The notes below the pieces were generated by a model. That model saw nothing but the letters and a program-made list of their open reading frames with translations, had not been told where the DNA came from and did no database searches. Positions 40,755 through 60,524 of a stretch of 64,000 bases of DNA are shown here, in pieces; the stretch's first letter is position 1, and the number at the start of each line of letters is the position of its first letter. Location: contig NZ_LAPT01000082.1 in NCBI RefSeq assembly GCF_003194385.1, forward strand, positions 62,001-126,000, in the 5' to 3' direction. The DNA comes from Pokkaliibacter plantistimulans (lineage in GTDB: Bacteria > Pseudomonadota > Gammaproteobacteria > Pseudomonadales > Balneatricaceae). A program made the translations under genes and the position numbers.

Positions 40755-41016
40755 ACAGACTCTCCGGCAACATGGCGACAACGCACGACCGTGCAACGGC
40801 AGTGCAGCATGGGGGTATCAGGATAGGAGAAGAATAGATCAGAATGGTGGCACTGCGCTCATCCGCCACAGAATTTCTCTGCCGCGCTTTTTCTGGCGCA
40901 CTTTTCACTAGCGCTTTTTAACGAGTGCATTTTCACTGGTGCACGTTTACTGCTGCAAGCGCGCGGATGCCGCCGGAACCCGCCTGGCAGTATCGCAGGC
41001 AAATAACACCAGCAGA

Positions 41017-41467: not shown

Positions 41468-42904
41468 TCAGCTGGACAGGCGCTCCAGCGATGCCGCCAC
41501 ACCGGCGCCGTAGGCAGGGTCGGCCTTGCTGCAGTTGTCGATATGCCGCTGCTTGATGGCCAGTGGTGCATCGCCCATGGCCCGCGCGGTGTTGTCGAAC
41601 AGCCGTTGCTGCTGGGCTGGCGTCATCAGACGGAACAGCTGGCCCGGCTGTTCATAGTGGTCGTCATCCACCCGGTGATCCCAGGCCCGCGCATCACCGT
41701 GCAGCGGCAGTGGTGGCTCAGCATGCTGCGGATTGTCCTGCCATTCACCAAAGCTGTTGGGGTAATAGGCCAGGGTCGAGCCGTTGTTGCCGTCGGTACG
41801 CATGGCACCGTCACGGTGATAACTGTGGAACGGACATTTGGGAGCATTGACCGGAATGCTGTTGAAGTTGACTCCCAGCCGGTAACGCTGTGCATCGCCA
41901 TAAGAGAACAAGCGTGCCTGCAGCATCTTGTCAGGGGAGAAACCAATGCCCGGCACCACGTTGGCAGGAGAAAACGCCGCCTGCTCCACTTCGGCAAAGT
42001 GATTATCGGGGTTACGGTTCAACTCCAGTACGCCGACTTCGATCAGCGGATAGTCGGCGTGTGACCAGACCTTGGTCAGATCAAAGGGATTGTGCGGATG
42101 ACTGGCCGCCTGCTCCTCGCTCATCACCTGAATGCACAGTGTCCAGCGCGGGAAGTCCTGACGCTCGATACTGTCGTACAGGTCACGCAGATGGCTTTCG
42201 CGGTCCTTGCCGATCAGCGCTTCGGCTTCGGTATCGCTGAGACTGGCAATTCCCTGCTGGCAGACGAAATGAAACTTCACCCAGACCCGCTCATTGGCCG
42301 CGTTGATCATGCTGAAAGTGTGGCTGCCAAAACCATGCATATGACGATAGCTGGCGGGAATGCCGCGCTCGCTCATGACGATGGTGACCTGGTGCAGGGC
42401 TTCCGGCAGCAGCGTCCAGAAGTCCCAGTTGGATGTGGCACTGCGCACGCCGGTACGTGGATCACGCTTGACCGCATGGTTGAGGTCCGGGAAGCGCATC
42501 GGATCACGGAAGAAGAACACCGGGGTGTTGTTGCCAACGATGTCCCAGTTGCCTTCGTCGGTATAGAACTTGACGGCAAAGCCGCGAATGTCGCGCTCGG
42601 CATCTGCCGCACCGCGCTCACCGGCGACGGTAGAAAAGCGCAGGAACACCGGTGTTTGCTTGCCCACCTCAGCAAACAGACTGGCTCTGGTGTAGCGGCT
42701 GATATCAGCAGTGACGGTAAAACTGCCATAAGCGCCCGCGCCCTTGGCATGCATGCGACGCTCGGGAATCACCTCGCGGTCGAAATGCGCCAGTTTCTCC
42801 AGCAGCCAGATATCCTGCAGCAACGCCGGGCCACGCGGGCCAGCGGTCTGAATATTGAGATTGTCGGCTACCGGCGCACCATTGGCGTGGGTCATCTTGC
42901 TCAT
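41468..42904 (-). CDS. katA: Monofunctional heme catalase (small-subunit clade)
   Basis: The protein has 478 residues. The distal His52 is in [13 protein letters not shown] and the catalytic Asn in [14 protein letters not shown]. The proximal heme-ligand Tyr is in [14 protein letters not shown]. The length and the absence of a C-terminal flavodoxin-like domain indicate a small-subunit, NADPH-binding type catalase. It degrades H2O2 in the cytoplasm. GGAG lies 8 bases upstream. It is the last gene of the minus-strand cluster but is separated from ycaC by a terminator-like hairpin, so it may also have its own promoter. Confidence 0.95.
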
Positions 42905-42941
42905 CTACAGCGTCTCCGTCGGTAAAAGAAAGGGGCAGAAC

Positions 42942-42969
42942 GCACCGTCAGCACGGGTGCTGACGGTGC
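42942..42969 (-). terminator. Hairpin between ycaC and katA
   Basis: GCACCGTCAGCA (42942-42953) and its exact complement (42958-42969) enclose CGGG. On the minus strand GTTCTGCCCCTTTCTTTT follows. It may end transcription after ycaC or only reduce read-through into katA. Confidence 0.65.
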
Positions 42970-43015
42970 TCGACCACCCGGGCAGCCATCACCTCAGGTG
43001 GTATCAGGCAGGCGC

Positions 43016-43636
43016 TTACCTGGCGGTCAGGGCAGCGTAGCTGTTCATCAGATTGCGGTAGTTGGGAATCCGCTCTGACAGCAGATGGCCCAGCCCTTCA
43101 ATGTCGTTGCGCCAGTCACGGTGCAGCTCGCAGGCCACGGCAAACCAGTTCATCATCTGCGCACCGGCAGCGCTCATGCGTGCCCAGGCAGCCTGCTGTA
43201 CGGTCTTGTCAAAGGTGCCGGAAGCATCGGTTACGACAAACACATCAAAGCCTTCTGCCAGCGCCGACAGCGTGGGGAACGCCACGCAGACATCCGTCAC
43301 GACACCGGCAATGATCAGCTGCTTGCGACCGGTAGCCTTGACCGCCGCGACGAAGTCAGCGTTGTCCCAGGCGTTGATCTGACCGGGGCGGGCGATGTAG
43401 GGCGCACTGGGGAACATCTCTTTCAGCTCAGGCACCAACGGACCATTGGGGCCCTGCTCGAAACTGGTGGTGAGAATGGTCGGCAGCTGGAAAAACCTGG
43501 CCAGATCGGCCAGCGCCAGCACGTTGTTCTTGAACTCGTTGGGAGTGAAATCCTGTACCAGCGAGATCAGACCGGTCTGGTGATCGACCAGCAGAACCAC
43601 GGCATCGTCTTTGTTGAGGCGGTTGTAAGGTTGCAT
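43016..43636 (-). CDS. ycaC: YcaC-family isochorismatase-like hydrolase
   Basis: The protein has 206 residues and is very like E. coli YcaC along its length: YNRLNKDDAVVLLVDHQTGL, ILTTSFEQGPNGPLVPEL, YIARPGQINAWDN and ELHRDWRNDIEGL. The nucleophile is Cys117 (VVTDVCVAF), with Asp18; Arg83 stands near the position where nicotinamidases have the catalytic Lys. YcaC forms octamers and its substrate is unknown. It belongs to the minus-strand cluster, 95 bases after the MFS gene. A 7-bp CTGACGC/GCGTCAG hairpin lies in that gap (43663-43684). Confidence 0.9.
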   Translation of the reverse strand: MQPYNRLNKDDAVVLLVDHQTGLISLVQDFTPNEFKNNVLALADLARFFQLPTILTTSFEQGPNGPLVPELKEMFPSAPYIARPGQINAWDNADFVAAVKATGRKQLIIAGVVTDVCVAFPTLSALAEGFDVFVVTDASGTFDKTVQQAAWARMSAAGAQMMNWFAVACELHRDWRNDIEGLGHLLSERIPNYRNLMNSYAALTAR

Positions 43637-43731
43637 AGCATTGACTCCTGATCATGAAATGGCTGACGCAGATCCACGCGTCAGTACCACAGCGGCCAGG
43701 GTAACGCCCCGACCGCGGCATTACCCCCTCA

Positions 43732-45339
43732 TCAGGCTGACGAGGGTGGATTCTTGCTGGCCATGGGCGCCAGCAGATGACGAATACGCACCGGTGTGCC
43801 GGCCATCTGCAGCCGCCGGGCACCTGCCTCGATCCGCTGCTCGGCCCGTGTCACCCGACCGTGATGGCGCAGATGCTCCAGCCAGGACTCGTCGAAGAAG
43901 AACTCCTGCCAGCACTGCGCGTCCTCACTGTCCTGCACCAGCCCCCAGGAGAAAGCACCATTGCGCTGCCGCATCCGGCGTACCTCAGCCATGGCCTGCT
44001 GGAAGGCGGGCCAGTCGGCCTCGGCAATACGGTATTCGACGCTGATCATCACCGGGCCGCGATCATGATGGCGGCTGTCCAGCGCGACCGGCGCAGGCCA
44101 GTGCAATGACGGCGCCAGGTCATCGGCTTCCTTCACTGGCAGGGAGAACAGCGGCGTCAGGCACAGGCCGAGCAACAGCACCGCCCCCGCCACGCAGAGG
44201 GCATAGGTGATGGAACTGTGGCTGGCGATGCTGCCCCATAACAGGCTGCCGCCCGCCAGACTGCCGAAGAACACCAGAATGTAGACTGCCAGTGCCCGCG
44301 CCTTGACCCAGCTGGGTACCGAGGTTTGTGCCGCCACCTGCAGGCTCGACAGCACCGCAATCCAGGCAGCGCCACTGACCAGCATGACCGGAATCAGCAG
44401 GGCGAAATGGCGAACAAAGGCCAGCGCAAAGATCACCAGTGCGTACAGCACCGAGGCCAGCACCACCAGCCGGTCGTTATGCAGATGCCGGCGAATCAGC
44501 GGCAGCAACATGGCGCCGGATACCGCGCCGACGCCGACGCAGCCAAGCAGGATGCCGAAGTCAGCCGCGCTGCCATGCAGCTCCTGCCGCACAATCAGGG
44601 GCAGCATCGACATTGCCCCACTGGCACCAAAGAAGAATGCCAGTGCCCGTACCAGCACCGCCTGCAGCGGTCGCGATGAACGGCTGTAGCGCCAGCCCGC
44701 ACGGATCGCCCCCAGCAGGCGCTCGGCAGGCAGGACTGGCGGCGTCAGCTGACGACGCCACAGCCACAGCACACTGATGACCGCCAGAAACGACGCGCCG
44801 TTGAGGGCAAAGGTCAGCCAGGGTCCGCTGAGGCTGACCAGTACCCCGGCAATGGCCGGCCCCACGGCCCGCGCCAGATTGACGCCGACACTGGACAGCG
44901 CAATGGCGGCAGGCAGATCGGCCTTATCCACCAGTTCCGGGGTCAGCGCCGACCAGGCCGGCATCATCAGCGCCGTGCCGATACCCATGCCGAGTGTCAG
45001 CAGTAACAGCAGCGGCACATTGATCAGCCCCAGCAGCGTCAGCAGGGCCAGCGTCATGGCTACCAGCGCCATCCAGCACTGCACCAGCAGCAGATAGCGG
45101 CGCTTGTCGACGATGTCCGCCAGCGCACCGGCGGGCAGGGCCAGAAAAAACATCGGCAGGGAGCCCGCCACCTGCACCAGCGCTACGTGCAGCGGGCTGG
45201 CCGACAGCGAGGTCATCAGCCAGCCAGCGCCAACCTCATGCATCCAGGTGCCGATGTTGGAGGCGATACTGGCCAGCCACAGCCAGCGAAAGGGCGTGTG
45301 ACGCAGCGGGCTCCAGGGAGAGTGAACAACCGTGGCCAT
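43732..45339 (-). CDS. MFS exporter (EntS/MFS_3 type) with C-terminal soluble domain
   Basis: The protein has 535 residues from the ATG at 45339 (GAGGAAG 9 bases upstream). About 10-12 helices occupy residues 15-410 (DxxxKRR-type loop ALADIVDKRRYLL after helix 2). A ~105-residue hydrophilic tail begins near 425 (MISVEYRIAEADWPAFQQAM). This is the layout of the MFS_3 family (PF05977), whose tail resembles an antibiotic-biosynthesis-monooxygenase fold. It may export an acidic or aromatic compound. Its ATG is two bases past the oprD stop, so the two are coupled. The substrate is unknown. Confidence 0.85.
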   Translation of the reverse strand: MATVVHSPWSPLRHTPFRWLWLASIASNIGTWMHEVGAGWLMTSLSASPLHVALVQVAGSLPMFFLALPAGALADIVDKRRYLLLVQCWMALVAMTLALLTLLGLINVPLLLLLTLGMGIGTALMMPAWSALTPELVDKADLPAAIALSSVGVNLARAVGPAIAGVLVSLSGPWLTFALNGASFLAVISVLWLWRRQLTPPVLPAERLLGAIRAGWRYSRSSRPLQAVLVRALAFFFGASGAMSMLPLIVRQELHGSAADFGILLGCVGVGAVSGAMLLPLIRRHLHNDRLVVLASVLYALVIFALAFVRHFALLIPVMLVSGAAWIAVLSSLQVAAQTSVPSWVKARALAVYILVFFGSLAGGSLLWGSIASHSSITYALCVAGAVLLLGLCLTPLFSLPVKEADDLAPSLHWPAPVALDSRHHDRGPVMISVEYRIAEADWPAFQQAMAEVRRMRQRNGAFSWGLVQDSEDAQCWQEFFFDESWLEHLRHHGRVTRAEQRIEAGARRLQMAGTPVRIRHLLAPMASKNPPSSA

Positions 45340-45341
45340 GA

Positions 45342-46664
45342 TCAAAGGCTTCCTCGTAACGGGTATTGCAGCAACAGATACAGACGTTCGATGTTGGCGC
45401 CGCCCTGGGCGGCGTTACCGCGATGGCCCACCTCCGCCAGTGACAGCGACAGATCCTTGAAGGGACCGGCAGGCACCTGATAGCGCACCTGCAGATCCCG
45501 CTCCCAGTGTTTGCCGCCCTGCCCCTGCTGAGGCTGATAGTCACCACTGGCACTGTCGAACGGGTTATAGGCACCGCCCGCCTCGGCATGGGTGCCATCG
45601 ATGCCCCAGCCTTTGACGTAGCGTGCCATCAAACTCAGGCCGGGGACGCCCAGCGCAGCGAAGTCGAAGTCATAACGGGCCTGCACGGAACGCTCATGGG
45701 CGCCGTTGAAGTCGGCATATTTGATGGAATTGGCCAGCGCGATGGCGTCCCCGCCGACAAAGTCAAAAGGGGTATCACCGTTGATTTTCTGATACGCCAG
45801 CATGAAACCCTGCGACGCCCGCTGGTAACTGGCCGCCACACTGTAAGCCAGGGTATCGATGGCCCCGGCACGACGCTCCCCCTGATCACGGCTGTGATAG
45901 AGGTTGCCGCCGACACGCAGGTTCTGCTGCTGCCAGTTGAGATTGAGATAACTCTGCCGCCAGTTGTCATCCAGCTGCGACACAAACAGCGCGCTGTGCA
46001 GCTGATCGCTGACCGCCCATCGGGCCCCTGCCAGACTGATGGCACTGCCCGCCGTGGAAGCCCCGTAGCCACTGAACTCGCCGTGTGAGGTAGAGGAGTC
46101 CTGATTTTTGAAAGCGGTAAAGTGCCCGGCCTGCAGGCTGAGGCCAGTCAGCTCATCGCTTTGCAGCCAGAAGCCGGTCGCATATTCCGGCTGCAGGCGC
46201 TTGTCCGCAGTGGCGAACACCGGCGTTGCCACCGTCATCTCGCCGTATTTCACTACTGTCTGCCGCAGGCGCAGTTTCACTGCCCCGCCGCTGCTACCGT
46301 AACTGTCTACGCTGCCGCCATCACTGTCAGCGGCCAGCAAACCGGTACCGGCGTGGCCGTGCTGGCTGTCCAGCTTGTAACCGGCAAAACCGTGAACATC
46401 GGCCCCCAACCCCAGCAACCCGGGGGTAAAACCCGACTGCACTTCGGCCAGCAGGCCATGAGCCCATTCCCGGCGGTAAGGCCGGTTGCCATCCGCACCC
46501 CGATAGTCGTTATCGATCAGGTAGTTGCGATTAAGCAAAGACCATTCAAGCAGGGGCTGAGGGGACGTTGCCGCAGCCGCACTGGCGCAGTGCGCCGTGG
46601 CCAGCGCCAACGTGGTACTCAGCCCCAGGCAGACAGCCGGGAATCGGGGAACAGTGGCAACCAT
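45342..46664 (-). CDS. OprD-family outer-membrane porin
   Basis: The protein is about 440 residues from the ATG at 46664, with CAGGAG 6 bases upstream. A signal peptide (to about ASA-AAA, residue 30) is followed by LNRNYLIDNDYRG, REWAHGLLAEVQSGFTPG and GLGADVHGFAGYKLD, the OprD N-terminal pattern. It ends with the last beta strand IERLYLLLQYPLRGSL. OprD/Occ channels take up amino acids, aromatic acids or small amides. Here the porin would feed the hydrolases encoded around it. A long near-perfect palindrome lies directly upstream of its ribosome site (46679-46714). Confidence 0.92.
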   Translation of the reverse strand: MVATVPRFPAVCLGLSTTLALATAHCASAAAATSPQPLLEWSLLNRNYLIDNDYRGADGNRPYRREWAHGLLAEVQSGFTPGLLGLGADVHGFAGYKLDSQHGHAGTGLLAADSDGGSVDSYGSSGGAVKLRLRQTVVKYGEMTVATPVFATADKRLQPEYATGFWLQSDELTGLSLQAGHFTAFKNQDSSTSHGEFSGYGASTAGSAISLAGARWAVSDQLHSALFVSQLDDNWRQSYLNLNWQQQNLRVGGNLYHSRDQGERRAGAIDTLAYSVAASYQRASQGFMLAYQKINGDTPFDFVGGDAIALANSIKYADFNGAHERSVQARYDFDFAALGVPGLSLMARYVKGWGIDGTHAEAGGAYNPFDSASGDYQPQQGQGGKHWERDLQVRYQVPAGPFKDLSLSLAEVGHRGNAAQGGANIERLYLLLQYPLRGSL

Positions 46665-46678
46665 CGGGAGGCTCCTGA

Positions 46679-46714
46679 ACAGCACTCAGAACCTGAACAG
46701 GTGCTGAGTGCTGT
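46679..46714 (-). repeat. 36-base near-perfect palindrome before oprD
   Basis: ACAGCACTCAG and CTGAGTGCTGT (11 bp) enclose a second ACCTG-TT-CAGGT stem with one mismatch between the two. The structure lies between the amidohydrolase stop and the oprD ribosome site (AGGAG begins just downstream on the minus strand). It may be an mRNA stabiliser, processing site, attenuator or operator. Confidence 0.65.
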
Positions 46715-46740
46715 GTGGTTCGGTCAGTGCAGGGACAGGA

Positions 46741-48579
46741 TCAGAAGGCGAAACAGGAGCAGCCGAAGGCACCCCAGAACCCCTGAAAATCACTGACCGG
46801 CACATTGGCCGTACGCACCCGATCATGACTGTGGGCGTGCACCGCACAGGGGCCTGAGCACTGGTGCACCTGCTTCAGCAGGGGCGATGCTGGCCGCCAG
46901 TGGCCGGGCACCTTGTGTACCGGTGACCAGTCAGGCATGACAGGTACACTGGGTGGGCAGAGGTCATCGAACTCTTCGGCGGCGTAGACCACCTTGCCGT
47001 CGACCACTGTCAGTACCGACTCCAGCCACTTGATGGCTTCTTCCTCAACGCTGAAAAAATCGCCGGACAGGGCAATCAGGTCTGCCAGTTGACCCACTTT
47101 GATTTGCCCTTTCTTGCCCTGCTCCGACGAAAACCAGGCACTGCCATGGGTGAACAGCTGCAGCGCGGTCTCACGGGACAGCCCTTCCGGATACAGTGCG
47201 GTGCCGCCTACCGTGCGACCGCTGACCAGCCAGTACAGCGACGTCCAGGGGTTATAGCTGGAGACACGGGTGGCATCGGTGCCGGCACCGACCGGCACAC
47301 CTTCGGCCAGCATGCGCTTGATCGGCGGGGTCTGCTCTGCTGCCTGATGGCCATAACGGTCAACAAAGTACTCCCCCTGAAAGGCCATACGATCCTGAAT
47401 GGCGATACCGCCGCCCAGTGCCCGCACCCGCTCGATGTTCTGCGGAGTGATGGTTTCGGCATGATCGAAGAACCACGGCAGACCGTTGAAGGGGATGTCA
47501 CGGTTGACCTTCTCGAACACGTCCAGCATGCGCGAGATGGACTCGTTGTAAGTGGCATGCAGACGGAACGGCCAGCGCTGCTCGACCAGGTGACGCACCA
47601 CCGGCTCCAGTTCGGCTTCCATGCTGGCTGGCAGATCGGGGCGGGGTTCGAGAAAGTCTTCAAAGTCCGCGGCAGAGAACACCAGCATTTCCCCGGCGCC
47701 GTTATGGCGGAGGAAGTCATCGCCCTGATGCAGGGTCACTGAACTGGTCCAGTTCCTGAAGTCGTTCAGCTCTTCCTTGGGTTTCTGGGTAAACAGGTTG
47801 TAGGCGATACGGATGGTCAGCTGCTGGTCTTTGGCCAATTGCTGAATCACCGCATAGTCATCGGGATAGTTCTGGAAACCACCACCGGCGTCGATGCAGC
47901 TGGTCACGCCCAGACGGTTCAGCTCACGCATGAACTGACGGGTGGAGTTGACCTGATACTCCAGAGGCAGCTTCGGCCCCTTGGCCAGAGTCGCGTAGAG
48001 GATCATGGCATTGGGCCGGGCTATCAGCATGCCGGTCGGCTCGCCGTTGGCATCACGCTGGATTTCGCCGCCGGGCGGGTTGGGCGTATCGCGGGTATAG
48101 CCGACCACCTTGAGGGCAGCGCGGTTAAGCAGGGCGCGATCATACAGATGCAGCACAAAGACCGGGGTGTCCGGCGCCGCCCGGTTCAGCTCTTCCAGCG
48201 TCGGCATGCGTTTTTCCGCAAACTGGAATTCGTTCCAGCCTCCCACTACCCGTACCCACTGCGGGGCAGGCGTCACATCTGCCTGTTGCTTGAGCAGACG
48301 CAGGGCATCGGCCAGCGAGGGCACGCCTTCCCAGCGCAGTTCCAAGTTGTAGTTCAGGCCACCGCGAATCAGGTGCAGGTGGGAGTCATTAAGACCGGGT
48401 ATCACGGTACGCCCTTTAAGATCAATGACCTTGGTGTGATCACCGCGTACCGCCATGGCTTCGGCATCACTGCCCACCACGGTGAAACGGCCGTCCTTGA
48501 TGGCGACGGCAGTGGCAGTGGGATTGTCGCGGTCAACCGTGTGCAGTCGACCATTGTGCAGAATCAGATCGGCATTCAT
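46741..48579 (-). CDS. YtcJ-like amidohydrolase (amidohydrolase_3 family)
   Basis: The protein has 612 residues. An N-terminal barrel strand (DLILHNGRLHTVDRDNP) leads to the metal site PGLNDSHLHLIRGG. Later metal and acid residues are in RLHATYNESISR, FDHAETITPQN and GAGTDATRVSSYNPW. The family deacylates amides or formamides; exact substrates vary widely. The last ~45 residues include several Cys and His (CSGPCAVHAHSHDR ... CSCF), unusual for the family and possibly metal-binding. No export signal is seen. It is in the cluster between the ABM membrane protein and oprD. Confidence 0.88.
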   Translation of the reverse strand: MNADLILHNGRLHTVDRDNPTATAVAIKDGRFTVVGSDAEAMAVRGDHTKVIDLKGRTVIPGLNDSHLHLIRGGLNYNLELRWEGVPSLADALRLLKQQADVTPAPQWVRVVGGWNEFQFAEKRMPTLEELNRAAPDTPVFVLHLYDRALLNRAALKVVGYTRDTPNPPGGEIQRDANGEPTGMLIARPNAMILYATLAKGPKLPLEYQVNSTRQFMRELNRLGVTSCIDAGGGFQNYPDDYAVIQQLAKDQQLTIRIAYNLFTQKPKEELNDFRNWTSSVTLHQGDDFLRHNGAGEMLVFSAADFEDFLEPRPDLPASMEAELEPVVRHLVEQRWPFRLHATYNESISRMLDVFEKVNRDIPFNGLPWFFDHAETITPQNIERVRALGGGIAIQDRMAFQGEYFVDRYGHQAAEQTPPIKRMLAEGVPVGAGTDATRVSSYNPWTSLYWLVSGRTVGGTALYPEGLSRETALQLFTHGSAWFSSEQGKKGQIKVGQLADLIALSGDFFSVEEEAIKWLESVLTVVDGKVVYAAEEFDDLCPPSVPVMPDWSPVHKVPGHWRPASPLLKQVHQCSGPCAVHAHSHDRVRTANVPVSDFQGFWGAFGCSCFAF

Positions 48580-48656
48580 AACCTTGCCCTTCCTGTGCAG
48601 ATGGATGCAGCAGCCGGTTGCCTTGGTACAGCCCGGCTACGTCAAGTATTCGGAGA

Positions 48657-49208
48657 TCAGGTGCGTGAGCGGCCTTCCAGCCAGGCTGAGAACAACGCCG
48701 TCACCCGAGGCATGAAGAAGTAGACCACCAGCAACACGATGCTGAGGGTGATCACCACGTTGCTGGGCACAAAGCCTCCCAGCCACGGCCACTGCTGAAA
48801 GGCCGGGCGCCACAGCAGCGGCACCAACATGCTCAGGGGCAGAATCACCAGAAAGGTGATGCAGGCCTGCTTCCAGCGCGGCGGCGGCAGAATCTGCCCG
48901 GGGGTGAACCAGAACTCCCGCGCGCCATCGACTTCAAACTGGTCCCCTTCCACCAGCAGCGGCATGACCTCGTCAATCAGTTGCTTGCGGTCACTGGAGT
49001 CCAGCCAGCTTTGCAGCTCGGTGGTGCCGCAAAAGCGCAGCACACAGACAAAGCGGTCCAGATCGCGGATCACATTGACCCCCAGATGGCCGGGGTAACT
49101 GGCAGCCACCTGCGTGGTACGACGCAGCCACTGCTCATACGCCAGATCAACGCCCGGCTTGATCCGGTGACGCACGATCAGCGTCACTACATCCTGTTCA
49201 TTCATCAT
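48657..49208 (-). CDS. Antibiotic-biosynthesis-monooxygenase-domain membrane protein
   Basis: The protein is about 183 residues, with AAGGG 4 or 7 bases before two adjacent ATG codons (49208, 49205). The N-terminal half is an ABM ferredoxin-like domain (VVTLIVRHRIKPGVDLAYEQW, then YPGHLGVNVIRDLDRFVCVLRF; in part). The C-terminal half has two membrane helices (about 115-135 and 150-170) and a short basic tail. This ABM-plus-two-helix form is common but unstudied. It may be a membrane-anchored heme- or quinone-handling protein. It is 22 bases after doxX. Confidence 0.8.
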   Translation of the reverse strand: MMNEQDVVTLIVRHRIKPGVDLAYEQWLRRTTQVAASYPGHLGVNVIRDLDRFVCVLRFCGTTELQSWLDSSDRKQLIDEVMPLLVEGDQFEVDGAREFWFTPGQILPPPRWKQACITFLVILPLSMLVPLLWRPAFQQWPWLGGFVPSNVVITLSIVLLVVYFFMPRVTALFSAWLEGRSRT

Positions 49209-49230
49209 TCGGCCCTTCACAGTTCAGAAC

Positions 49231-49644
49231 TCAGCTCACCCGCGCCAGCAGCGGAAACCTGCCGGCGACCCGTTGCCCCAGCGCCAGACGACCCGGACCA
49301 CTGATCAGCAAGGTGCCGAACAGGATCAGCAACAGCCAGCCAAACTGCCCCTCTGCCAGACTCCACTGCGGATGCACCAGCAGCAGGGCCACCAGCAGCA
49401 GAAACAGCAACGGCAGGCAGGCAAGCCGGGTAAACACCCCCAGCATGATCAGCAGCGGACAGACCACCTCGGCAAAGATGGCCAGCCACAGCGTCAGGCT
49501 GGCGCCGAGGCCAAAGGGGTCTTCAATCTGGGTCAGCTGCTGCTGGAAATGCAGTAATTTGGGCAGGCCATGGACCTGCAGCACCAACAGGGACCCGGCC
49601 AGCCGCTGAAACAGCAGGCCCCAGTCCGTCAGGGTAGTCGCCAT
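49231..49644 (-). CDS. DoxX-family inner-membrane protein
   Basis: The protein has 137 residues and four membrane helices. GLPKLLHFQQQL after the first helix, and an acidic-then-GGxxLxxG-like segment FAEVVCPLLIMLGVFTRLA, are DoxX features. DoxX proteins often accompany redox or stress operons and have been linked to sulfur or quinone redox, but no reaction is established for this branch. GGAG is 7 bases upstream. It is in the cluster, 73 bases after the second isochorismatase-like gene. Confidence 0.85.
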   Translation of the reverse strand: MATTLTDWGLLFQRLAGSLLVLQVHGLPKLLHFQQQLTQIEDPFGLGASLTLWLAIFAEVVCPLLIMLGVFTRLACLPLLFLLLVALLLVHPQWSLAEGQFGWLLLILFGTLLISGPGRLALGQRVAGRFPLLARVS

Positions 49645-49717
49645 CGTCAGTTCTCCTTGGTCAGCTGGTCGGGGATAGCGGCCGCAGGGAGCAGGCCGCC
49701 GTACTCTCGCTCCGGGA

Positions 49718-50371
49718 TCAGTGCCCTTCAGAAGCGTTGAACATGGTCTTGGCGTAAATCAGGCCCAGACCATAGGCACCGCCATGGGCGATGGAGGTCT
49801 TCACGGTCTGGTCATAGGTTTCACCACGCGCCCAGTCACGCTGCAGTTCCAGCAGGTACTGCAGTGACGTCATGGGCCGGGCACCCAGCTGCACCATGCG
49901 GGTGATGGCCATTTCGTGAGCTTCGGTCGAGACATCACCGCAGGCATCGGTGATGACATAAACTTCAAAGCCCTGATCCAGCGCCGACAGTGCCGGGCCG
50001 ACGATGCAGACGGATGTCCACAGCCCCGCCAGCACAATCTTGCTTTTGCCGTACTCATTGACTTCAACGGCGATGCGCTCGTCTTCCCAGGTGTTCATAG
50101 TGGTACGGTCAATCACGTTGTAGTCAGGGAATACTGACTTGATCTCATCGAAGATCGGGCCGGAGAAGCTCTTCTCGGCCACGGTGGTCAGAATGGTGGA
50201 TACACCGAATTCCTTGGCGGCCTTGGCCACCAGTGCCGCGTTGTTACGCAGGGTCACTGCATCAATGGACTTGGTGGCAAAGGACATCTGCGACTGGTGG
50301 TCGATCATGATCAGGGTATGATCGTCATGGTTGAGCAGGGTTTTTCCGGGTACCGCTTTGGCGATGGCCAT
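49718..50371 (-). CDS. Isochorismatase-like cysteine hydrolase (second copy)
   Basis: The protein has 217 residues from MAIAKAVPGKTLL, with AGAGGATA 6 bases upstream. The fold is marked by HTLIMIDHQSQMSFA (Asp), STILTTVAEKSFSGPIF and the nucleophile Cys in LAGLWTSVCIVGPALSAL. It is not a close copy of the YcaC protein at 43016: ARPMTSLQYLLELQRDWAR replaces the YcaC tail. Related proteins cleave amides such as nicotinamide or ureido compounds, or act as signal hydrolases. The substrate is unknown. It lies between the chloroperoxidase-like hydrolase and doxX. Confidence 0.85.
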   Translation of the reverse strand: MAIAKAVPGKTLLNHDDHTLIMIDHQSQMSFATKSIDAVTLRNNAALVAKAAKEFGVSTILTTVAEKSFSGPIFDEIKSVFPDYNVIDRTTMNTWEDERIAVEVNEYGKSKIVLAGLWTSVCIVGPALSALDQGFEVYVITDACGDVSTEAHEMAITRMVQLGARPMTSLQYLLELQRDWARGETYDQTVKTSIAHGGAYGLGLIYAKTMFNASEGH

Positions 50372-50500
50372 GGTGTCTATCCTCTTGCAATGGACGTAGT
50401 GAAAGAACGCAGCTGTCCTCAGCCGCTGTGGAACAGGTAAAAAAACGGTGTCAAACGCTAGCAACGGCGGCGGTGTTGCACCGCTTTGGGGTGACCGCGC

Positions 50501-51325
50501 TCAGCTCTGGATAAAGGCCAGCAGGTCAGCGTTAAGCTGATCCTTGTGGGTATCCGTCAGGCCGTGCGGAGCACCGGCATAGACCTTGAGTACGGCGTCC
50601 TTGATCAGTCGGGCGGCAGCCAGTGCGGAGGTACCAATCGGCACCACCTGATCGGCATCGCCGTGGATAATCAGGGTGGGGATGTCGAACTTCAGCAGAT
50701 CCTCGGTGAAGTCCGTGGCCGAGAAGGCCGCAATGCAGTCATAGGTATTCTTGTGCCCGGCCATCATGCCCTGCATCCAGAAGGTATCGATCAGCCCGGC
50801 TGAGGGCGTGGCCCCTTCCAGGTTGAAGCCGAAGAACGGGCCACTGGCCAGATCCTTGTAAAGCTGTGCCCGGTTGGCCAGCGACGCGGCACGGATGCCG
50901 TCAAATACCGCCATTGGCAGCCCGTCGGGATTGCTTTCCGTCTGCAGCATCTGTGGCGGCACCGAGGCAATCAGCCCAGCCTTGGCCACACGCTTGCTGC
51001 CGTGACGACCGATATAGCGAGCTACTTCGCCGCCACCGGTGGAGAAGCCGAACAGTACCGCCTCGTGCAGATCGAGCACTTCCATCAGCTCGGCCAGATC
51101 ATCGGCATAGTGATCCATATCGTTGCCCTGCCAGGGCTGACTGGAACGACCATGGCCCCGGCGATCATGAGCAATCACCCGATAGCCCTGAGAGGCCAGG
51201 AACAGCATCTGCGCTTCCCAGCTGTCCGCATTGAGCGGCCAGCCGTGGCTGAACACGATGGGCTGACCACTGCCCCAGTCCTTGTAGTAAATGTCGACAC
51301 CATCACGCGTTGTGAACGTAGCCAT
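50501..51325 (-). CDS. Alpha/beta hydrolase, non-heme chloroperoxidase type
   Basis: The protein has 274 residues. The triad is Ser95 (GFSTGGGEV), Asp225 (HGDADQVVP) and His254 (APHGLTDTH). The oxyanion block is [13 protein letters not shown] and the DRRGHGRS loop follows. This is the cofactor-free haloperoxidase/perhydrolase-esterase branch. In vivo it is probably an esterase or lactonase; perhydrolysis would produce peracids, which would fit the catalase in the same cluster. GGAGAA lies 7 bases upstream. No signal peptide, so cytoplasmic. Confidence 0.9.
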
Positions 51326-51371
51326 GGAAGTTCTCCTGTCTGCCGTTGTGTGGATCAGCCGGGGCTGAGGG

Positions 51372-52403
51372 TTATTGCAGATGCTTCTTCAGCTCAGTGC
51401 CGGCCTGCAGCATGGCTGACTGGGTGGAAGGCAACGTGGCCAGCGGATTAAGCAGGCCGAAGTCGTGAATCATGCCGTTGTAGCGGGTCGCAGTGACGGC
51501 CACCCCGGCCTGATCCAGCTTGTGCGCATAGGCCTCGCCTTCATCACGCAACACGTCGTCCGCGGCGGTAATCACCAGTGCCGGAGGCAGGCCTTTCAGC
51601 TCGGCCAGACTGGCGCGCAGCGGTGAGGCGGTGATCTGTGCCCGCTGTTTCTTGTCCGTGGTGTAGTTGTCCCAGAACCACTTCATCATCGGTTTGGTAA
51701 GGAAGTACCCCTGGGCAAACTCCTTGTAGGAAGGGGTGTCCATTCCAGCATCAGTGACCGGCCACAGCAGGGCCTGGAAGCGGATGGCCGGCGTGCCTTT
51801 GTCTTTCGCCATCAGGCTCACCACCGCCGCCATGTTGCCGCCGACACTGTTACCGGCGACCGCCAGCCGTGTGCCATCGACACCCAGCTCGGCACCGTGC
51901 GCAGCGACCCAGGCGGTAGCGGCATAAGCCTGATTGATGGCCGTGGGATACTGGGCTTCAGGTGAGGGGGTGTAGTTGACGTACACCGCCACCGCACCGG
52001 AGTTGACGACCAGATCACGGATCAGGCGGGCATGGGTGGGATAATCGCCCAGTACCCAGCCACCGCCGTGGAAGAACATGAATACCGGCAAGGTCCCCGT
52101 CACACCCTGCGGGCGAACGATGGTCAGCGCGATGGACTTGCCATTGACCTCGATGGACTTCTCCTCGGTGCTAATACCTGACATATCCACCTCGACAGAC
52201 TTCTGCGCACCGGTCAGTACGGCACGCGCTTCCATCGGTGTCAGCTGCTCGAGGGGCTTGCCACCGCCCTTGGCCAGCACATCGAGAAAGGCCTGGGTCT
52301 GGTGTTCAACCGTTGGCTTGTCGGCCGCCAGCACGCAGGACGCAGCGCCCAGCCCGGTGGACAGTGCCAGCGCAGCGGCCAGCAGACGAGGAGTCAGGTT
52401 CAT
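51372..52403 (-). CDS. Secreted alpha/beta hydrolase, hormone-sensitive-lipase family
   Basis: The protein has 343 residues with a signal peptide (to about VLA-ADK, residue 27). The HSL oxyanion motif FFHGGGW is at 111-116 and the nucleophile Ser186 in GNSVGGNMA. Asp and His follow in [11 protein letters not shown] and GMIHDFGLL. It would cleave short acyl esters or carbamates in the periplasm, upstream of uptake and the cytoplasmic hydrolases. It is 21 bases after the flavodoxin-like gene. GGAGAG is 7 bases upstream. Confidence 0.9.
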
Positions 52404-52424
52404 GCGAGGTACTCTCCTATCAGG

Positions 52425-53021
52425 TCAGCCCAGCCGGGATGACAGGTTGCTTTGATTCATGCTCATCTGTGCGGCCAGCCTGGCCACCCGCTCACCGAGA
52501 TGCCGGGCAGTCAGACGGTCAGCTTCCGGCGGCGCCGTGTCGCTGCCTTCATCCAGATTGGACTGCGCCATCGCTCCCAACGAACCGCCAAGACGATTGA
52601 GATCCTGCGGCGACGCCATACGGGTGTTGTTACCGGGCAGCAGATCCAGCCCCACCCAGATCATCGAGTGCTGGGCGGCGAAGGTGACCATCTGCACCAG
52701 GGTGTTGAATTTGTCGCCACACGGGTTACCGGAGTTGGTAAAGCCGGCAGCCAGCTTGTTGCGCCAGGGTCTGGCCAGATAGAAGGCCGATGTGGCCTCC
52801 ATAAAATGCTTGAACGGGGCAGACACGCTGCCCATGTAGGTAGGGGAGCCAAAGATGATGGCATCGGCACTGTGCAACTGCTGCCAGTGCTGCGGTACCT
52901 GATCCACCGGTAGCAGCAGCGCGGTACTGTCGGGCTGGCTGTCCACCCCCTGGGTCACGGCTTCTGCCAGCACCCGGGTATGGCCATAACCACTGTGATA
53001 CACCACCACTACCTTGCTCAT
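52425..53021 (-). CDS. Flavodoxin-like NAD(P)H:quinone oxidoreductase (WrbA-related)
   Basis: The protein has 198 residues. The FMN phosphate loop is VVVYHSGYGHTRVLAEAV. IFGSPTYMGSVSAPFKHFME and GFTNSGNPCGDKFNTL are the isoalloxazine loops of the WrbA/NADPH-FMN reductase group. It would reduce quinones by two electrons and limit redox cycling. It is the first gene of the minus-strand cluster, next to the divergent STAND regulator. GGAGA is 6 bases upstream. It lacks the internal insertion of true WrbA, so the symbol is not given. Confidence 0.86.
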   Translation of the reverse strand: MSKVVVVYHSGYGHTRVLAEAVTQGVDSQPDSTALLLPVDQVPQHWQQLHSADAIIFGSPTYMGSVSAPFKHFMEATSAFYLARPWRNKLAAGFTNSGNPCGDKFNTLVQMVTFAAQHSMIWVGLDLLPGNNTRMASPQDLNRLGGSLGAMAQSNLDEGSDTAPPEADRLTARHLGERVARLAAQMSMNQSNLSSRLG

Positions 53022-53355
53022 GCCGGCTCTCCTGAACCCTGGCCTGTGTCGTGGGGCTATTTTTGGCTGGCAGCGCTGGATGTGCGAGTTAATGGTTGTT
53101 AATCGTCGTTGGCGGTCTATTGTTAATCCTCATTAACAACCGCTTAACACCTGAGGAAATACGCATCAGACCTGTCTGTCGTGTTGCATTGACAGGCACT
53201 GCTGCGCAAGATGGTTGAACAATCTGAACGGACCGCCGTGGATGCTGGCTGATCGCTGGACGTATGACGCTGTATAGGCGCTACCTTCCGACATAGCAGT
53301 TCGTCTGAAGATGCCTTGCTGGGAGCCATTCCCCTGGCTAATCGAGGAGCCTGCC
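53022..53355. other. Divergent promoter region, cluster / STAND regulator
   Basis: 334 bases without a gene. It contains several GTTAAT motifs (see 53088-53148). Nothing else was recognised between 53150 and 53340. Confidence 0.5.
53088..53148. promoter_or_regulatory. GTTAAT repeat cluster, probable winged-helix operator
   Basis: GTTAAT occurs at 53088, 53098 and 53122; the first two copies are exactly 10 bases apart. TTGTTAAT-CCTC-ATTAACAA (53120-53139) is a perfect 8-bp inverted repeat, and TTAAC recurs at 53144. Direct repeats one helical turn apart are typical targets of OmpR-type winged helices, the domain carried by the adjacent regulator. Confidence 0.5.
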
Positions 53356-56205
53356 ATGAATTCAAGCTATTTCCCCCCTCACCGATCGCAGACTGCCGTT
53401 GCTGTGCCGTATCCCCAGCAGGAGCAGGCGGTGTGTTTTGGCTCCTACCGTATTTATCCACAGCAACGTCTGGTCTTTGATGCCGAACGGCCACTCACGT
53501 TGGGCAAGCGGGCACTGGATATTCTGCTGGTGCTGCTGCAATACGCCGGGGAAGTGGTCAGTAAGGAACAATTGCTGGCAACGGTCTGGCCCGATAACAG
53601 CGTCGAGGAGATCAGCCTGCGCGTGCATATTGCCGCCCTGCGCAAAGCACTGGGTGATGGCCAGCACGGTCAGCGCTATATCGTCACCGTGCCGCAGCGC
53701 GGTTACTGTCTGGCGGTTAACATCATCAGCGACAAGCAGCCTATTACTGCTCTCCCCAGTGAACGTAAACACAACCTGCCGCCGCGCCTGACACGCATGC
53801 TGGGCCGGGATGATGTGCTGCACCGGCTGCTGACCCTGACACCCCAGCAGCGTCTGGTCAGTGTGGTCGGTACCGGGGGCATCGGCAAAACCACCGTCGC
53901 CCTGCGTACCGCCGAGCTGCTGCTCGACCAGTTTGAACAGGGTATCCGGCTGCTCGACCTTGCCCCACTGCGGGACGAGTCGGGAATCAGCATAGCATTG
54001 AGCAAGGTACTTGAGCTGCCCGCCACCCACGGCGACCCGTTGCCTCAGCTCTACAGACACCTGCAAAATCGCCACATGCTGCTGGTAGTGGATAACTGTG
54101 AGCACCTGATTGATGGCATTGCCTCGCTGGCCGACAGTCTGCTGCGCCATGCGCCGCATCTGCATATGCTCTGCACCAGCCGCGAGCCACTGAATATCGA
54201 GGGTGAACAGGTTATTCGCCTGAATGCACTGGCCTACCCCACCACCCTGATGACGGAACCGCAGACAGCCCTGACCTTTCCCGCCATCCAGTTGTTTATA
54301 GAACGCGCGCAGAGGTGTACCGACAACGTTGTCCCTGACGCACAGGAGCTGGCGGTGGTGGTACAGATTTGTCAGCGGCTGGACGGCATTCCACTGGCTA
54401 TCGAGCTGGCTGCGGCCCACCTCAGCAGTCTGGGATTACGTGACCTGCTGTTTCAGCTGCAGAACAGCTTCCGTCTGCTGACTCAGGGCCGCCGTACCGC
54501 CCTGCCCCGTCATCAGACACTGCGGGCGACACTGGACTGGAGCTATGAGCTGCTGTGTGAACAGGCGCAACAGAGTCTGCGCCGGCTGAGCATTTTTGAG
54601 GGGCGCTTCACGCTGGAATCGGCCATGGCGGTGGTGCCGTGGGGATCGCTGGCCGCCAGTCAGCTGTTGCCTGCCATCGCCGAACTGGTCAACAAGTCAT
54701 TACTGAACGTCGATAACAGCAACCTGACGCTCCGTTACTACCTGCTGGATACCACCCGCTGCTATGCGCGTAACCAGCTACAGCTGGCTGAGGAGAGTGA
54801 GCTGGCGGCCCAGCATCACGCCAACTACTGTCTGCGGCAAATAAAGCACGCCAGACGGCAATGGGAGCAGCAGTCCAACCCAGGCTGGCGTCAGCAGTGT
54901 GAGGCGCAGCTCAATGAACTACGCTCTGCCATGAACTGGGCTCTGTCCCGGCCTGCGCATCATGCGCTGGCCATCAGCCTGACGCTGGCGTCGTCGCCGT
55001 TGTGGCAGGAGTTGTCTCTGCTACAGGAGTACAGCCGCTACCTGCAACAGGCCCTGAGTTGCGAAACGGTGGCACGCTCCGCTGAACTCACCATGCAGCT
55101 GCAGCTATTGCTCGGCAGTGCCTGGTTCCATTGCCGTGGCGATACACCCGAAACCTGGGCCGCCTTCGTTGCCGCACACCATCTGGCTGAACAGTGCCAG
55201 CATCGGATGGGACAACTGCAGGCCATCTCCGGCCAGATGACCATCAACCTCAGTCGCGGCGACTATCTTGCCGGACTGCAACAGGGTCAGCTGTTCGGGA
55301 AGCTGAACTGGCAACGCGAACCGGTCCTGTGGATCACCAGCCACCGTCTGCAGGCGCTGGCACTGCACTATGCCGGGCAACAGCGGGAGGCACGACTGCT
55401 GCTGGACAGCATCGGCAGCCAGCTGCCAGACCAGCATGATCCCTGTTATGTCACACACAATCTGGGCGTTCAGTATGATCTGCACGTCGCTACCCTGACA
55501 CTGCAGGCGCGTATCCTCTGGCTGCAGGGACTGGGTGAGCAGGCCTGCGCGGTCGCGACACGCGCGCTGGAGCGCGCTACTCGCATCGATCACGCCACGT
55601 CCATCTGCTACACCCTGTGCATGGCGGGTTTTGTCATCGCCTTCCACAATGGCAAGCACCCGCTGGCCATTCAGCGGCTTACCCTGCTGGCGCAGCTGAC
55701 TCACCGGCACGCCGTGGTGTTTTTCCAGAACTGGGTACCGTATTACCAGCGCCTCTATCTGCCGCTGGTGGACAGCACTGGCCCCTATCCACAGCCGCCT
55801 CAACCACCGGCCACCATGATTGGCGAGTTTATCGCCACCATGAAAGCCAGCTTCGCCAGCCCGGCACTGCTGGAGCGCGCAGAGCGTGGGCTGACCGGCT
55901 GGGCCACGGCCGAGTTATTGAGGATAAAGGCCGATCAGCTGTTGTCGCAGCCAGCCTCTGATACCGACAGTGCCGAGCAGGTACTGCAAAAGGCACTGCA
56001 GATTGCACGGGAACAAGGAGCACTGATCTGGGAACTACGCAGTGCTACCAGTCTGGCGGAGCTCTGGCACAGCCAGGGCCGCCAGTCCGACGCCTATGGA
56101 CTGCTGGCGCCGGTCTACGAGAAGTTCAGCGAGGGATTCTCCACCCCGGATGTGCAACGCGTCGGGGCGCTGTTGCAGCAATGGCAGCCGGTCAGCACCC
56201 ACTAA
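53356..56205 (+). CDS. Winged-helix / STAND ATPase / TPR-like transcriptional regulator
   Basis: The protein has 949 residues from MNSSYFPPHRSQ, with CGAGGAG 6 bases upstream. An OmpR-type winged helix (about 27-122: GKRALDILLVLLQYAGEVVSKEQLL, in part; RVHIAALRKALG; YIVTVPQRGYCLA) precedes an NB-ARC-like ATPase. Walker A is GTGGIGKTT (172-180) and Walker B is LLVVDNCEH (Asp247); CTSREPL is the sensor. The C-terminal ~400 residues are helical repeats, probably TPR-like. Such proteins are ligand-gated activators. It is divergent from the hydrolase cluster and is the best candidate for its activator. Confidence 0.87.
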   Translation: MNSSYFPPHRSQTAVAVPYPQQEQAVCFGSYRIYPQQRLVFDAERPLTLGKRALDILLVLLQYAGEVVSKEQLLATVWPDNSVEEISLRVHIAALRKALGDGQHGQRYIVTVPQRGYCLAVNIISDKQPITALPSERKHNLPPRLTRMLGRDDVLHRLLTLTPQQRLVSVVGTGGIGKTTVALRTAELLLDQFEQGIRLLDLAPLRDESGISIALSKVLELPATHGDPLPQLYRHLQNRHMLLVVDNCEHLIDGIASLADSLLRHAPHLHMLCTSREPLNIEGEQVIRLNALAYPTTLMTEPQTALTFPAIQLFIERAQRCTDNVVPDAQELAVVVQICQRLDGIPLAIELAAAHLSSLGLRDLLFQLQNSFRLLTQGRRTALPRHQTLRATLDWSYELLCEQAQQSLRRLSIFEGRFTLESAMAVVPWGSLAASQLLPAIAELVNKSLLNVDNSNLTLRYYLLDTTRCYARNQLQLAEESELAAQHHANYCLRQIKHARRQWEQQSNPGWRQQCEAQLNELRSAMNWALSRPAHHALAISLTLASSPLWQELSLLQEYSRYLQQALSCETVARSAELTMQLQLLLGSAWFHCRGDTPETWAAFVAAHHLAEQCQHRMGQLQAISGQMTINLSRGDYLAGLQQGQLFGKLNWQREPVLWITSHRLQALALHYAGQQREARLLLDSIGSQLPDQHDPCYVTHNLGVQYDLHVATLTLQARILWLQGLGEQACAVATRALERATRIDHATSICYTLCMAGFVIAFHNGKHPLAIQRLTLLAQLTHRHAVVFFQNWVPYYQRLYLPLVDSTGPYPQPPQPPATMIGEFIATMKASFASPALLERAERGLTGWATAELLRIKADQLLSQPASDTDSAEQVLQKALQIAREQGALIWELRSATSLAELWHSQGRQSDAYGLLAPVYEKFSEGFSTPDVQRVGALLQQWQPVSTH

Positions 56206-56264
56206 CGTGTCAAATTGGCAGAGAAGAGGGAGAAGCAGTTGATCGGCTGATCAGTCAGCCAACG

Positions 56265-57794
56265 TCAGCTCAGCTGGACACTACGCCAGTGTGAAACCTC
56301 CTGCGTCACCTCCTCCTTTCTGAAGGCCTGACAACACACCTCAGCATACCGCTGCTGCATGACGGCCAGCTCACCTTTCTGCTGTAGCTGCTGCAGCGCA
56401 AATGCCCGTGCTGCATGCAACAACCGATAGCGGGCAATCCCCCCCAACGCATCCACCTGTACCAGTGATTTGGCCACCAGCCCGGTCAGCGCTTCGATGA
56501 TAGCGTCGTCTCTCAGTGGCCGACTGCTCAGCACCTTGAGGGCGACATTCAGGGTAAACACCGTGCGAAATACGCCCAACCGGTTGAAGCATACGCGCTC
56601 CAGCGCCGTCAGGTTGTCATAGCCAGATCGCAACACCGCCTGCAACGACTGATGACGGTGACTGGCGGCGCGACGCTCCAGCTGCAGGAAAGCAAAATGT
56701 TCATCCAGCTGCTGACACAGCCCCTGCAGCCCGTAGGCTTCGCTGTGAAATGCCGCCAGTTCCAGTGCCAGAGGCATGCCGTCCAGCCGACGGCATATCT
56801 CACACAGCAGCGGCGCATTGGCCGCATTGAGAGTGAAGTCCTGCTGACGCGCCTGAATGCGCTTCACCAGTAGGCGAACGGCGGGAAAAGACAGCAACTG
56901 CTCATGCTGCTCTGCCTGTTGCGGATAAGCCAGCGGTTGTAAAACCTGCACATATTCACCGTCGATGCGCAGGGCTTCGCAGCTGGTCACCAGAATGGAC
57001 AGCAGGGGTACGCTATTCAGCAGCGATTCGGCCATATCGGCACAGAAATTCAGCTGGCCTTCACAATTATCAAAAATCAGTAACCGTGGCTGCTGGTGCT
57101 CAGCACGGGGATAACGGCTGATCTCCAGCCCCAGCTGACGGCTCAGCAAGGTCGCCACGGCGACCGGATCCTGCTGTTCGGAAAAATCGATCATGCAGAT
57201 CTGTTGCTGATAGACTTCCCGCACCCGCTCAGCCACCTGCAATGCCGTGCAGCTCTTACCCACACCACCGGGGCCTGTCAGGGTCACCAGCCGATGGGAC
57301 AGCAGCCGTTGCACCAGCTCTTCAACCACGACATCACGACCTTCGATACCAGTCGCGTTGACCGGGAGCTGATACACAGATTCGGTCGTTGGCGCCGCAA
57401 TGAACACTCGTTCAGACTCACTGCCAGACGGCTGATCAGCATCTGTTGCCTGCATGATGCCTTCTGCGACAAAACTATAACCACGCTGAGGAACGGTAAT
57501 GATATAGCGACGTCCATCCTCGCCATCACGCAGGGCACGACGCAGCGCAGCGATATGCACGCGCAGGTTGATCTCTTCGACAATGGAGTTGGGCCATACA
57601 TAAGCCATCAGCTGTTCTTTGCTGACCACTTTGCCAGCGTTTTCCAGCAGCAGCTGAAGGATGTCCAGGGCACGACTTCCCAGTCGCAATGGCTGCCCCT
57701 GCTCCGTTACAAGACGGCGCTGAATATGGAAGGTGAAGGCATCAAAGCAAAACGTCTGTTCACTTTGATCGGCTCGCTGCATATACATCTGCAT
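56265..57794 (-). CDS. Second winged-helix / STAND ATPase regulator, lacking the repeat domain
   Basis: The protein has 509 residues. The winged helix (about 15-112) is strikingly like that of the neighbour at 53356: RALDILQLLLENAGKVVSK, RVHIAALRRALRDGEDG and YIITVPQRGYSFV. Walker A is GPGGVGKS (174-181); Walker B is LLIFDNCEG. After the helical domain (RRLDGMPLALELAAF) the protein stops, so the ~400-residue repeat sensor of the larger protein is missing. It is convergent with it, 59 bases apart. Truncation or a natural short form are both possible. It may compete for the same operator. Confidence 0.85.
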   Translation of the reverse strand: MQMYMQRADQSEQTFCFDAFTFHIQRRLVTEQGQPLRLGSRALDILQLLLENAGKVVSKEQLMAYVWPNSIVEEINLRVHIAALRRALRDGEDGRRYIITVPQRGYSFVAEGIMQATDADQPSGSESERVFIAAPTTESVYQLPVNATGIEGRDVVVEELVQRLLSHRLVTLTGPGGVGKSCTALQVAERVREVYQQQICMIDFSEQQDPVAVATLLSRQLGLEISRYPRAEHQQPRLLIFDNCEGQLNFCADMAESLLNSVPLLSILVTSCEALRIDGEYVQVLQPLAYPQQAEQHEQLLSFPAVRLLVKRIQARQQDFTLNAANAPLLCEICRRLDGMPLALELAAFHSEAYGLQGLCQQLDEHFAFLQLERRAASHRHQSLQAVLRSGYDNLTALERVCFNRLGVFRTVFTLNVALKVLSSRPLRDDAIIEALTGLVAKSLVQVDALGGIARYRLLHAARAFALQQLQQKGELAVMQQRYAEVCCQAFRKEEVTQEVSHWRSVQLS

Positions 57795-60402: not shown

Positions 60403-60524
60403 GCGTTCTCTCTTGCTCACGCCCGTTACCCGATGTCATGCGGCAGAGCATAGCTGATCGCACTCCATCACTCGCCCCTATCAACGCGCAACTACGTCGC
60501 CTACTGATGGCCAAGGACAACAAC

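Follow-up and report, generated by a model that had tools for sequence, protein, structure and literature searches.

Do the hydrolase, transport and redox genes that follow one another on a single strand in Pokkaliibacter plantistimulans form a regulated pathway, or do they lie together by chance, and, if they form a unit, what might control it? The genes in question are found in a 64,000-nucleotide stretch of this genome (assembly GCF_003194385.1, contig NZ_LAPT01000082.1, positions 62,001 to 126,000 of the forward strand), which we refer to as the window and in whose numbering all coordinates are given. Profile searches of the window proteins identified eleven minus-strand genes running from 53021 to 41468, and these belong to the families that an earlier note on this DNA had assigned to them: a flavodoxin, two esterases, two isochorismatase-like cysteine hydrolases (IsoB and IsoA), DoxX, a protein with an ABM domain, an amidohydrolase (AmHy), an OprD porin, an MFS exporter and a catalase. 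We propose, with a probability of about 0.55, that the genes from the flavodoxin to IsoA (53021 to 43016) constitute an inducible uptake-and-hydrolysis operon under the control of a GlxA-type regulator together with a short and a long STAND protein. What is new in this analysis is a candidate operator beside the paired STAND regulators.

Conservation of the gene neighbourhood

Each window gene was searched against 96 loci, which comprised the 80 best matches to IsoB (mostly from Pseudomonas), 7 plasmid loci and 9 further genome regions, and a match was required to have 40% coverage. IsoB (49718-50371, or to 50464 depending on the start codon, minus strand; PF00857, 95.8 bits) was accompanied most often by a homologue of AmHy (46741-48579, minus strand), a YtcJ-type amidohydrolase with a C-terminal Cys/His tail (PF07969, 452.6 bits) that was found at 49 loci. 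Next came the OprD porin (45), ABM protein (38), DoxX (30), the chloroperoxidase-type hydrolase CPO (27), GlxA (23), the HSL-type esterase (21), the exporter MFS_3 (20) and the STAND proteins (19-20), followed by the flavodoxin (4) and the catalase (0). The counts for the long and short STAND genes (19 and 20 loci, respectively) often refer to one and the same gene, and the count for IsoA mostly reflects cross-matching to IsoB.

The pairing of AmHy with isochorismatase-like genes could be followed in two sets of genomes. Among the 25 genomes of genus g84, 23 carried a relative of IsoB (E <= 1e-40), 22 a relative of AmHy (E <= 1e-100) and 22 both, and the two genes lay at most 10 kb apart in 20 of the 22 genomes holding both; counted by copies, 22 of 28 IsoB and 22 of 35 AmHy genes were linked, some of the linked IsoB copies being just 44-47% identical. 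The 75-residue tail of AmHy was present in 46 of 398 proteobacterial genomes, at 54 places (three of which, G186, G1009 and G224:C33, are weak and were kept in the denominators), and an isochorismatase-like gene (E <= 1e-30) was situated within 10 kb of the tailed amidohydrolase in 39 of the 46 genomes and at 45 of the 54 places. When at least 40% identity to IsoB was demanded, the linkage held in 34 of the 46 genomes and at 40 of the 54 places.

These counts bear directly on the explanation that the cluster is a chance run, in which stress and catabolic genes unrelated to one another have come to lie together. In line with such a run, many relatives have the genes in a different order, and the esterase, porin and flavodoxin genes are variably present; nevertheless, the linkage in both genome sets, the common site described below and the behaviour of the flank genes (GAPDH, ArsR, TIM-barrel and GFO genes had homologues at 0 of the 96 loci, and the EAL gene at 4, with 25-31% identity) speak strongly for a real unit, as does the conservation of the neighbourhood that the earlier note had named as the check. 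On conserved linkage and order we reject the chance run as scarcely credible, with the catalase excepted.

The cluster is not confined to the relatives of Pseudomonas. Two annotated alphaproteobacterial plasmids carry, in this order, an isochorismatase-like hydrolase, a XapX/DUF1427 protein, an amidohydrolase, DoxX and an MFS protein, with an alpha/beta hydrolase further on. As judged from these genomes, the cluster recurs in distant bacteria and is probably an old, widely shared operon type. The host belongs to the same order as Pseudomonas and to another family, and IsoB (E <= 1e-50) was found in 8 of 293 genomes of the order, the host genome being the sole one of its family. This patchy distribution suggests an older transfer. 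IsoB is 88-93% identical to the Pseudomonas copies, and a recent transfer into the host was considered and found unsupported, fourfold degenerate sites agreeing at 0.41-0.67 (chance 0.35) in 21 gene comparisons.

A candidate operator beside paired STAND regulators

At the head of the cluster, the long STAND gene (STAND1, 53311-56205, plus strand) is transcribed divergently from the flavodoxin gene, as the earlier note had reported. Its product consists of a winged helix (PF00486, 66.7 bits), a putative NTPase domain and a predicted C-terminal helical half; homology begins near residue 37-41, and the ATG at 53356 is the likely start. The short STAND gene (STAND2, 56265-57794, minus strand) encodes 509 residues with an OmpR-type winged helix (PF00486, 67.6 bits) and a putative NTPase domain, and lacks the TPR-like C-terminal sensor half. 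The winged helix of both proteins far exceeds its cut-off (26.2), while the NTPase domain is sub-threshold in both (AAA_22, 24.8 and 20.1 of 27), with Walker-type motifs recognized by eye and a relative passing AAA_22 at 33.7 bits; the C-terminal half of the long protein is likewise sub-threshold for TPR_12 (21.3 of 30.1). Over 505 aligned columns the short protein shares 40% identity with the N-terminal half of its long counterpart, and their winged-helix cores are near-identical. The two regulators are thus related, as had been claimed, but they do not bracket the cluster: the genes stand side by side in convergent orientation, both at the flavodoxin end. Beyond them, outside the interval covered by the earlier note and missed there, lies a gene that belongs to the cassette, encoding a GlxA-type regulator with DJ-1/PfpI and AraC helix-turn-helix domains (58065-59024, minus strand; PF01965, 83.9 bits; PF12833, 74.8 bits).

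The 289-bp spacer between the flavodoxin and STAND1 genes contains five TTAAC/GTTAA half-sites in about 62 bp. An alignment of five spacers of this flavodoxin/STAND1 type revealed a single clear conserved block, ATTAACAACC[A/C]TTAACT, which holds two TTAAC half-sites with a spacing of 10 bp, one helical turn. In the window this candidate operator reads ATTAACAACCATTAACT and lies at 53087-53103 on the minus strand, and further GTTAA/TTAAC half-sites extend to about 53150. Because both STAND proteins carry OmpR-type winged helices, the 10-bp-spaced half-sites would suit them as binding sites.

Allowing up to two mismatches, a search of the 96 loci gave 12 matches in 10 of them. The site was exact in the window, L154-L157, L166 and L172, and had one mismatch in L153 and two in L148-L152; in five fluorescens-type clusters the two-mismatch variant precedes the flavodoxin gene and occurs again, reversed, between CPO and ABM. 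The search of the 96 loci used loci picked by IsoB, unlike the scans of 341 and 398 genomes. In the host genome itself (5.79 Mb), there was one exact copy and two more with 2 mismatches, the reversed control also giving two. A scan of 398 Pseudomonas genomes with the exact pattern matched five, against none for the reversed control, and all five matches sit between a STAND gene, whose homology starts 223-265 bp away, and the first gene of the cluster. Those in P. marincola, P. tumuqii and P. benzenivorans had been known beforehand, and those added by the scan, in G282 and G567, have matching gene positions and look near-identical, so that the five matches represent four lineages at most; the scan is of worth mainly for having found no site elsewhere.

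Ten loci, all from Pseudomonas and picked because the site is present, were read over 20 kb each. In nine of them the order was GlxA, short STAND, then the convergent long STAND, the site and the hydrolase genes, with 31-80 bp between the matched stretches of the two STAND genes. GlxA adjoins the STAND genes in all ten; the short form is likewise present in all ten, and a full-length homologue of the long form in nine. The exception is P. marincola, where the long STAND gene is missing and GlxA stands with the short one. The first gene after the site differs among the ten, being the flavodoxin, CPO or the HSL-type esterase. In the benzenivorans copy a remnant of the HSL gene remains between the site and CPO, and the window, with flavodoxin, HSL and CPO genes, may therefore be the fuller arrangement.

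Conservation of the site is not simply a matter of close relatedness. IsoA, IsoB and AmHy are 88-92% identical to the copies in P. tumuqii and P. benzenivorans, whereas agreement at fourfold degenerate sites is 0.55-0.59 (chance 0.35), so the site has not been kept through mere relatedness; the same values imply strong constraint on these three enzymes, and CPO, MFS_3, DoxX, ABM and GlxA are 63-82% identical to the same two copies. On these grounds the site is a candidate that probably controls the cluster as an operator.

Several observations weigh against a dedicated operon governed in this way. Within genus g84, 13 of 35 copies of AmHy and 6 of 28 of IsoB are without a partner inside 10 kb, and among the 96 loci IsoB is also found apart from the cluster, often with an OprD gene as its neighbour. 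In P. marincola the only STAND gene at the site is the short one, and it turns its 3′ end towards the site. A looser scan, in which two positions were relaxed, matched 6 of 341 genomes (control, 1), and four of its five new matches were reversed, at a distance of about 0.5 kb from the long STAND gene, and a predicted AraC-type gene contains three of these; the four form one orthologous group (83-96% DNA identity) and were not counted as independent, and besides the window the match in G282 was canonical. The motif TTGTTAA is absent from the four short-STAND-only clusters checked (L039, L056, L058 and L065), and a simple scan of the flavodoxin-STAND1 spacer gave no promoter-like site.

The short-STAND-only clusters possess a different conserved stretch, around CGAGCACA..GGTCCAATAA, in the spacer between GlxA and IsoB, as found by aligning 11 loci (the four just named together with L069, L070, L073, L074, L076, L078 and L080); this is possibly a second type of operator. 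Other variations were noted among the related loci. The long STAND homologue is shortened in L166 (9389-11080, 563 residues) and in L172 (11441-13093), both of which retain GlxA, the short STAND gene and the site. L165 and L167 have GlxA and both STAND genes and no hydrolase genes over the 18 kb that were read; the long STAND gene has an AraC-type gene as its neighbour instead. At many loci in the range L087-L125, an IsoB gene with 87-90% identity stands beside OprD with the rest of the cluster missing, and selA, selB and formate dehydrogenase genes occur near such OprD-flanked copies at about 20 loci.

The enzymes and their possible substrates

The intergenic distances from the flavodoxin to IsoA range from a 4-bp overlap up to 129 bp. 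The first gene encodes a WrbA-like flavodoxin (52425-53021; this and the following genes are on the minus strand) that scored 47.3 bits with PF03358 and matched PDB 3d7n with an E value of 9.7e-39, and that fell below the cut-offs for WrbA quinone oxidoreductases (TIGR01755, 66.2 of 132.5 bits; NF002999, 79.2 of 141). It is followed by the HSL-type esterase, an alpha/beta hydrolase (51372-52403; PF07859, 241.2 bits) that is probably exported, judging from a signal-peptide-like N-terminus seen by eye, and that scores below the cut-offs of LipP1 lipase (NF058653, 311.9 of 350) and chloramphenicol hydrolase (NF033149, 242.5 of 500). CPO, a chloroperoxidase/arylesterase-type alpha/beta hydrolase (50501-51325; PF00561, 106.8 bits), aligns to PDB 1a8s over nearly its full length (E 1.4e-153). 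Beyond IsoB come DoxX (49231-49644; PF07681, 52.6 bits), a membrane protein, and the ABM protein (48657-49220), with two membrane segments predicted by eye; its score of 15.7 bits with PF03992 is below the Pfam cut-off of 23.1, and of three relatives scanned two were above it (23.9 and 24.1) and one below (21.2). The ABM assignment also draws on an alignment of 16 sequences. AmHy is succeeded by OprD (45342-46685; PF03573, 411.4 bits), MFS_3 (43732-45345; PF05977, 702.5 bits) and IsoA (43016-43636), a YcaC-type cysteine hydrolase with 396.7 bits in NF041461 (cut-off 310).

The pairing of AmHy with a cysteine hydrolase bears on what the pathway might act upon. The HxH metal motif of AmHy (H67 and H69) is the same in all 21 sequences that were aligned, as are C574, C578, H581, H583, H585, C607, C609 and F612 of its Cys/His tail, which is encoded at 46744-46968 (minus strand) and ends GCSCFAF; the tail could be a metal-binding marker of an amidohydrolase subfamily. 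The AlphaFold model of AmHy (mean predicted local distance difference test score, pLDDT, 48.5) was unusable. In the N-carbamoylsarcosine and biuret/triuret routes, a metal-dependent amidohydrolase opens a ring and an isochorismatase-fold amidase follows. By analogy with this logic, and given the pairing of AmHy with isochorismatase-like genes, a cyclic or plain amide may be the class of substrate, which is the weakest step of our argument. The resemblance has its limits: AmHy is YtcJ-like and bears the Cys/His tail, and both cysteine hydrolases score far below the cut-off of the biuret amidohydrolase model (27.9 and 33.9 of 370). Similarly, IsoA passes the YcaC model while IsoB, at 135.3 of 310 bits in NF041461, fails it, and CPO resembles the chloroperoxidase F-type alpha/beta hydrolases nearly end to end but differs from them in its place in a cluster that is probably regulated; it may act as an esterase, a perhydrolase or a lactamase. 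The uptake and stepwise hydrolysis of an ester or amide compound put forward in the earlier note fits the conserved linkage of AmHy with isochorismatase-like genes, the variable esterases at the head and the OprD and MFS neighbours; the substrate, the exported product and a quinone or peroxide by-product are what we infer beyond these data.

A different role, in stress defence, would have the regulators respond to electrophiles, quinones or oxidants by inducing broadly detoxifying hydrolases and reductases that serve no single substrate. The flavodoxin, DoxX, ABM and chloroperoxidase-type genes would suit such a module, as would a KatG-type peroxidase family near the amidohydrolase at 11 of the related loci (L058, 298-2535, and ten more; also annotated in Azotobacter) and, close to a copy of the cluster in Sinorhizobium, a manganese catalase. 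In addition, a study of YcaC, in which the function of that protein is given as unknown, describes a catalytic cysteine that reacts with electrophiles and suggests a role in stress (PMC4519933). The hydrolases are nonetheless the most conserved members and the porin is common, while the flavodoxin and the catalase are the least conserved, so that we regard stress defence as the unlikely alternative to an uptake-and-hydrolysis operon. Nothing in the parts of the hypochlorite literature consulted matched the gene set. An isothiocyanate (sax) function found no support, no sax sequence having been compared; the literature describes saxB as uncharacterised.

The operon might also hydrolyse the signals or antibiotics of competitors, such as N-acyl homoserine lactones or chloramphenicol-like amides. 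The isochorismatase-like HqiA is reported to degrade acyl homoserine lactones (PMC5430456), and the HSL-type esterase does register with the chloramphenicol hydrolase model. That score is far under the cut-off, however, and no resistance context was seen around the cluster, which makes this a quite improbable function.

Limits of the cluster and neighbouring genes

The earlier note had treated all eleven genes as one unit, which holds for the conserved neighbourhood from flavodoxin to IsoA and breaks down at the catalase (41468-42904, minus strand; PF00199, 627.7 bits). No homologue of the catalase was found in the 96 loci, within the flanks covered, and the gap between IsoA and the catalase contains a perfect 13-bp inverted repeat at 42942-42969, with a pyrimidine-rich run after it, that is a possible terminator. 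The catalase is probably a separate unit. At its far end there is a terminator-like hairpin (41410-41381), followed by the gene of a CSS-motif EAL protein (39225-40796). A GAPDH-like gene adjoining an ArsR-type regulator gene (37092-38523) resembles arsenic gene groups, and on the other side of the cluster TIM-barrel and GFO/IDH oxidoreductase genes form a sugar-type pair (59476-61697, plus strand).

Relation to known systems and proposed model

The cluster was not described, nor was a named pathway found for its gene set, in the literature searched, outside which most subscription journals lie; the earlier note had known of none either. Its regulators can be compared with two known systems. 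MalT carries a LuxR-like DNA-binding domain at its C-terminus, whereas that of the window STAND proteins is OmpR-type and N-terminal. The likeness lies in the nucleotide switch, which in MalT is opened by the inducer, as reported (PMC4381067), and which we propose to be opened likewise in the long STAND protein. The Streptomyces activator AfsR occupies a pair of 11-bp direct repeats as a side-by-side dimer, and versions of it that lack the TPR domain retain DNA binding and activation in vitro (PMC10936776). In the layout predicted for the long STAND protein, as in AfsR, a winged helix is combined with a nucleotide-binding domain and a helical C-terminal half, and direct repeats spaced by roughly one turn of the helix occur in both systems. 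This likeness is one of layout, and the window differs by adding the sensor-less paralogue and GlxA and by a repeat spacing of 10 rather than 11 bp.

We propose that the long STAND protein would sense an inducer through its C-terminal half, whereupon its NTPase would open and the protein would oligomerise, and that its OmpR-type winged helices would then settle next to each other on the TTAAC direct repeat and switch on the divergent operon. The short STAND protein, with its near-identical winged-helix core and no sensor half, might act at the same site as a partner or as a brake. OprD would import a small compound, which would be hydrolysed in steps, by the esterases first and then by AmHy together with one or both of the cysteine hydrolases; the flavodoxin, ABM and DoxX proteins may deal with redox by-products, and MFS_3 would export the product. 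Gene content, the conserved gene order in relatives, the conservation and rarity of the site and the linkage of amidohydrolase and hydrolase genes are directly established, and from them we infer DNA binding, activation rather than repression, an inducer, the role of the short protein and the class of substrate. More tentatively, the STAND sensor and its sensor-less paralogue, sharing a direct-repeat operator, could form with GlxA a three-protein switch that controls a new hydrolytic pathway of a tailed amidohydrolase and an isochorismatase-like amidase.

YcaC, the YtcJ-type amidohydrolases, DoxX and ABM proteins belong to widespread families, for most of which no substrate is known. A private candidate operator beside its own regulators makes this pathway testable, and its inducer would point to the substrate. 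The pair of long and short STAND proteins lends itself to the question of how STAND proteins, to whose class the NOD-like immune receptors belong, function alongside partners that lack a sensor.

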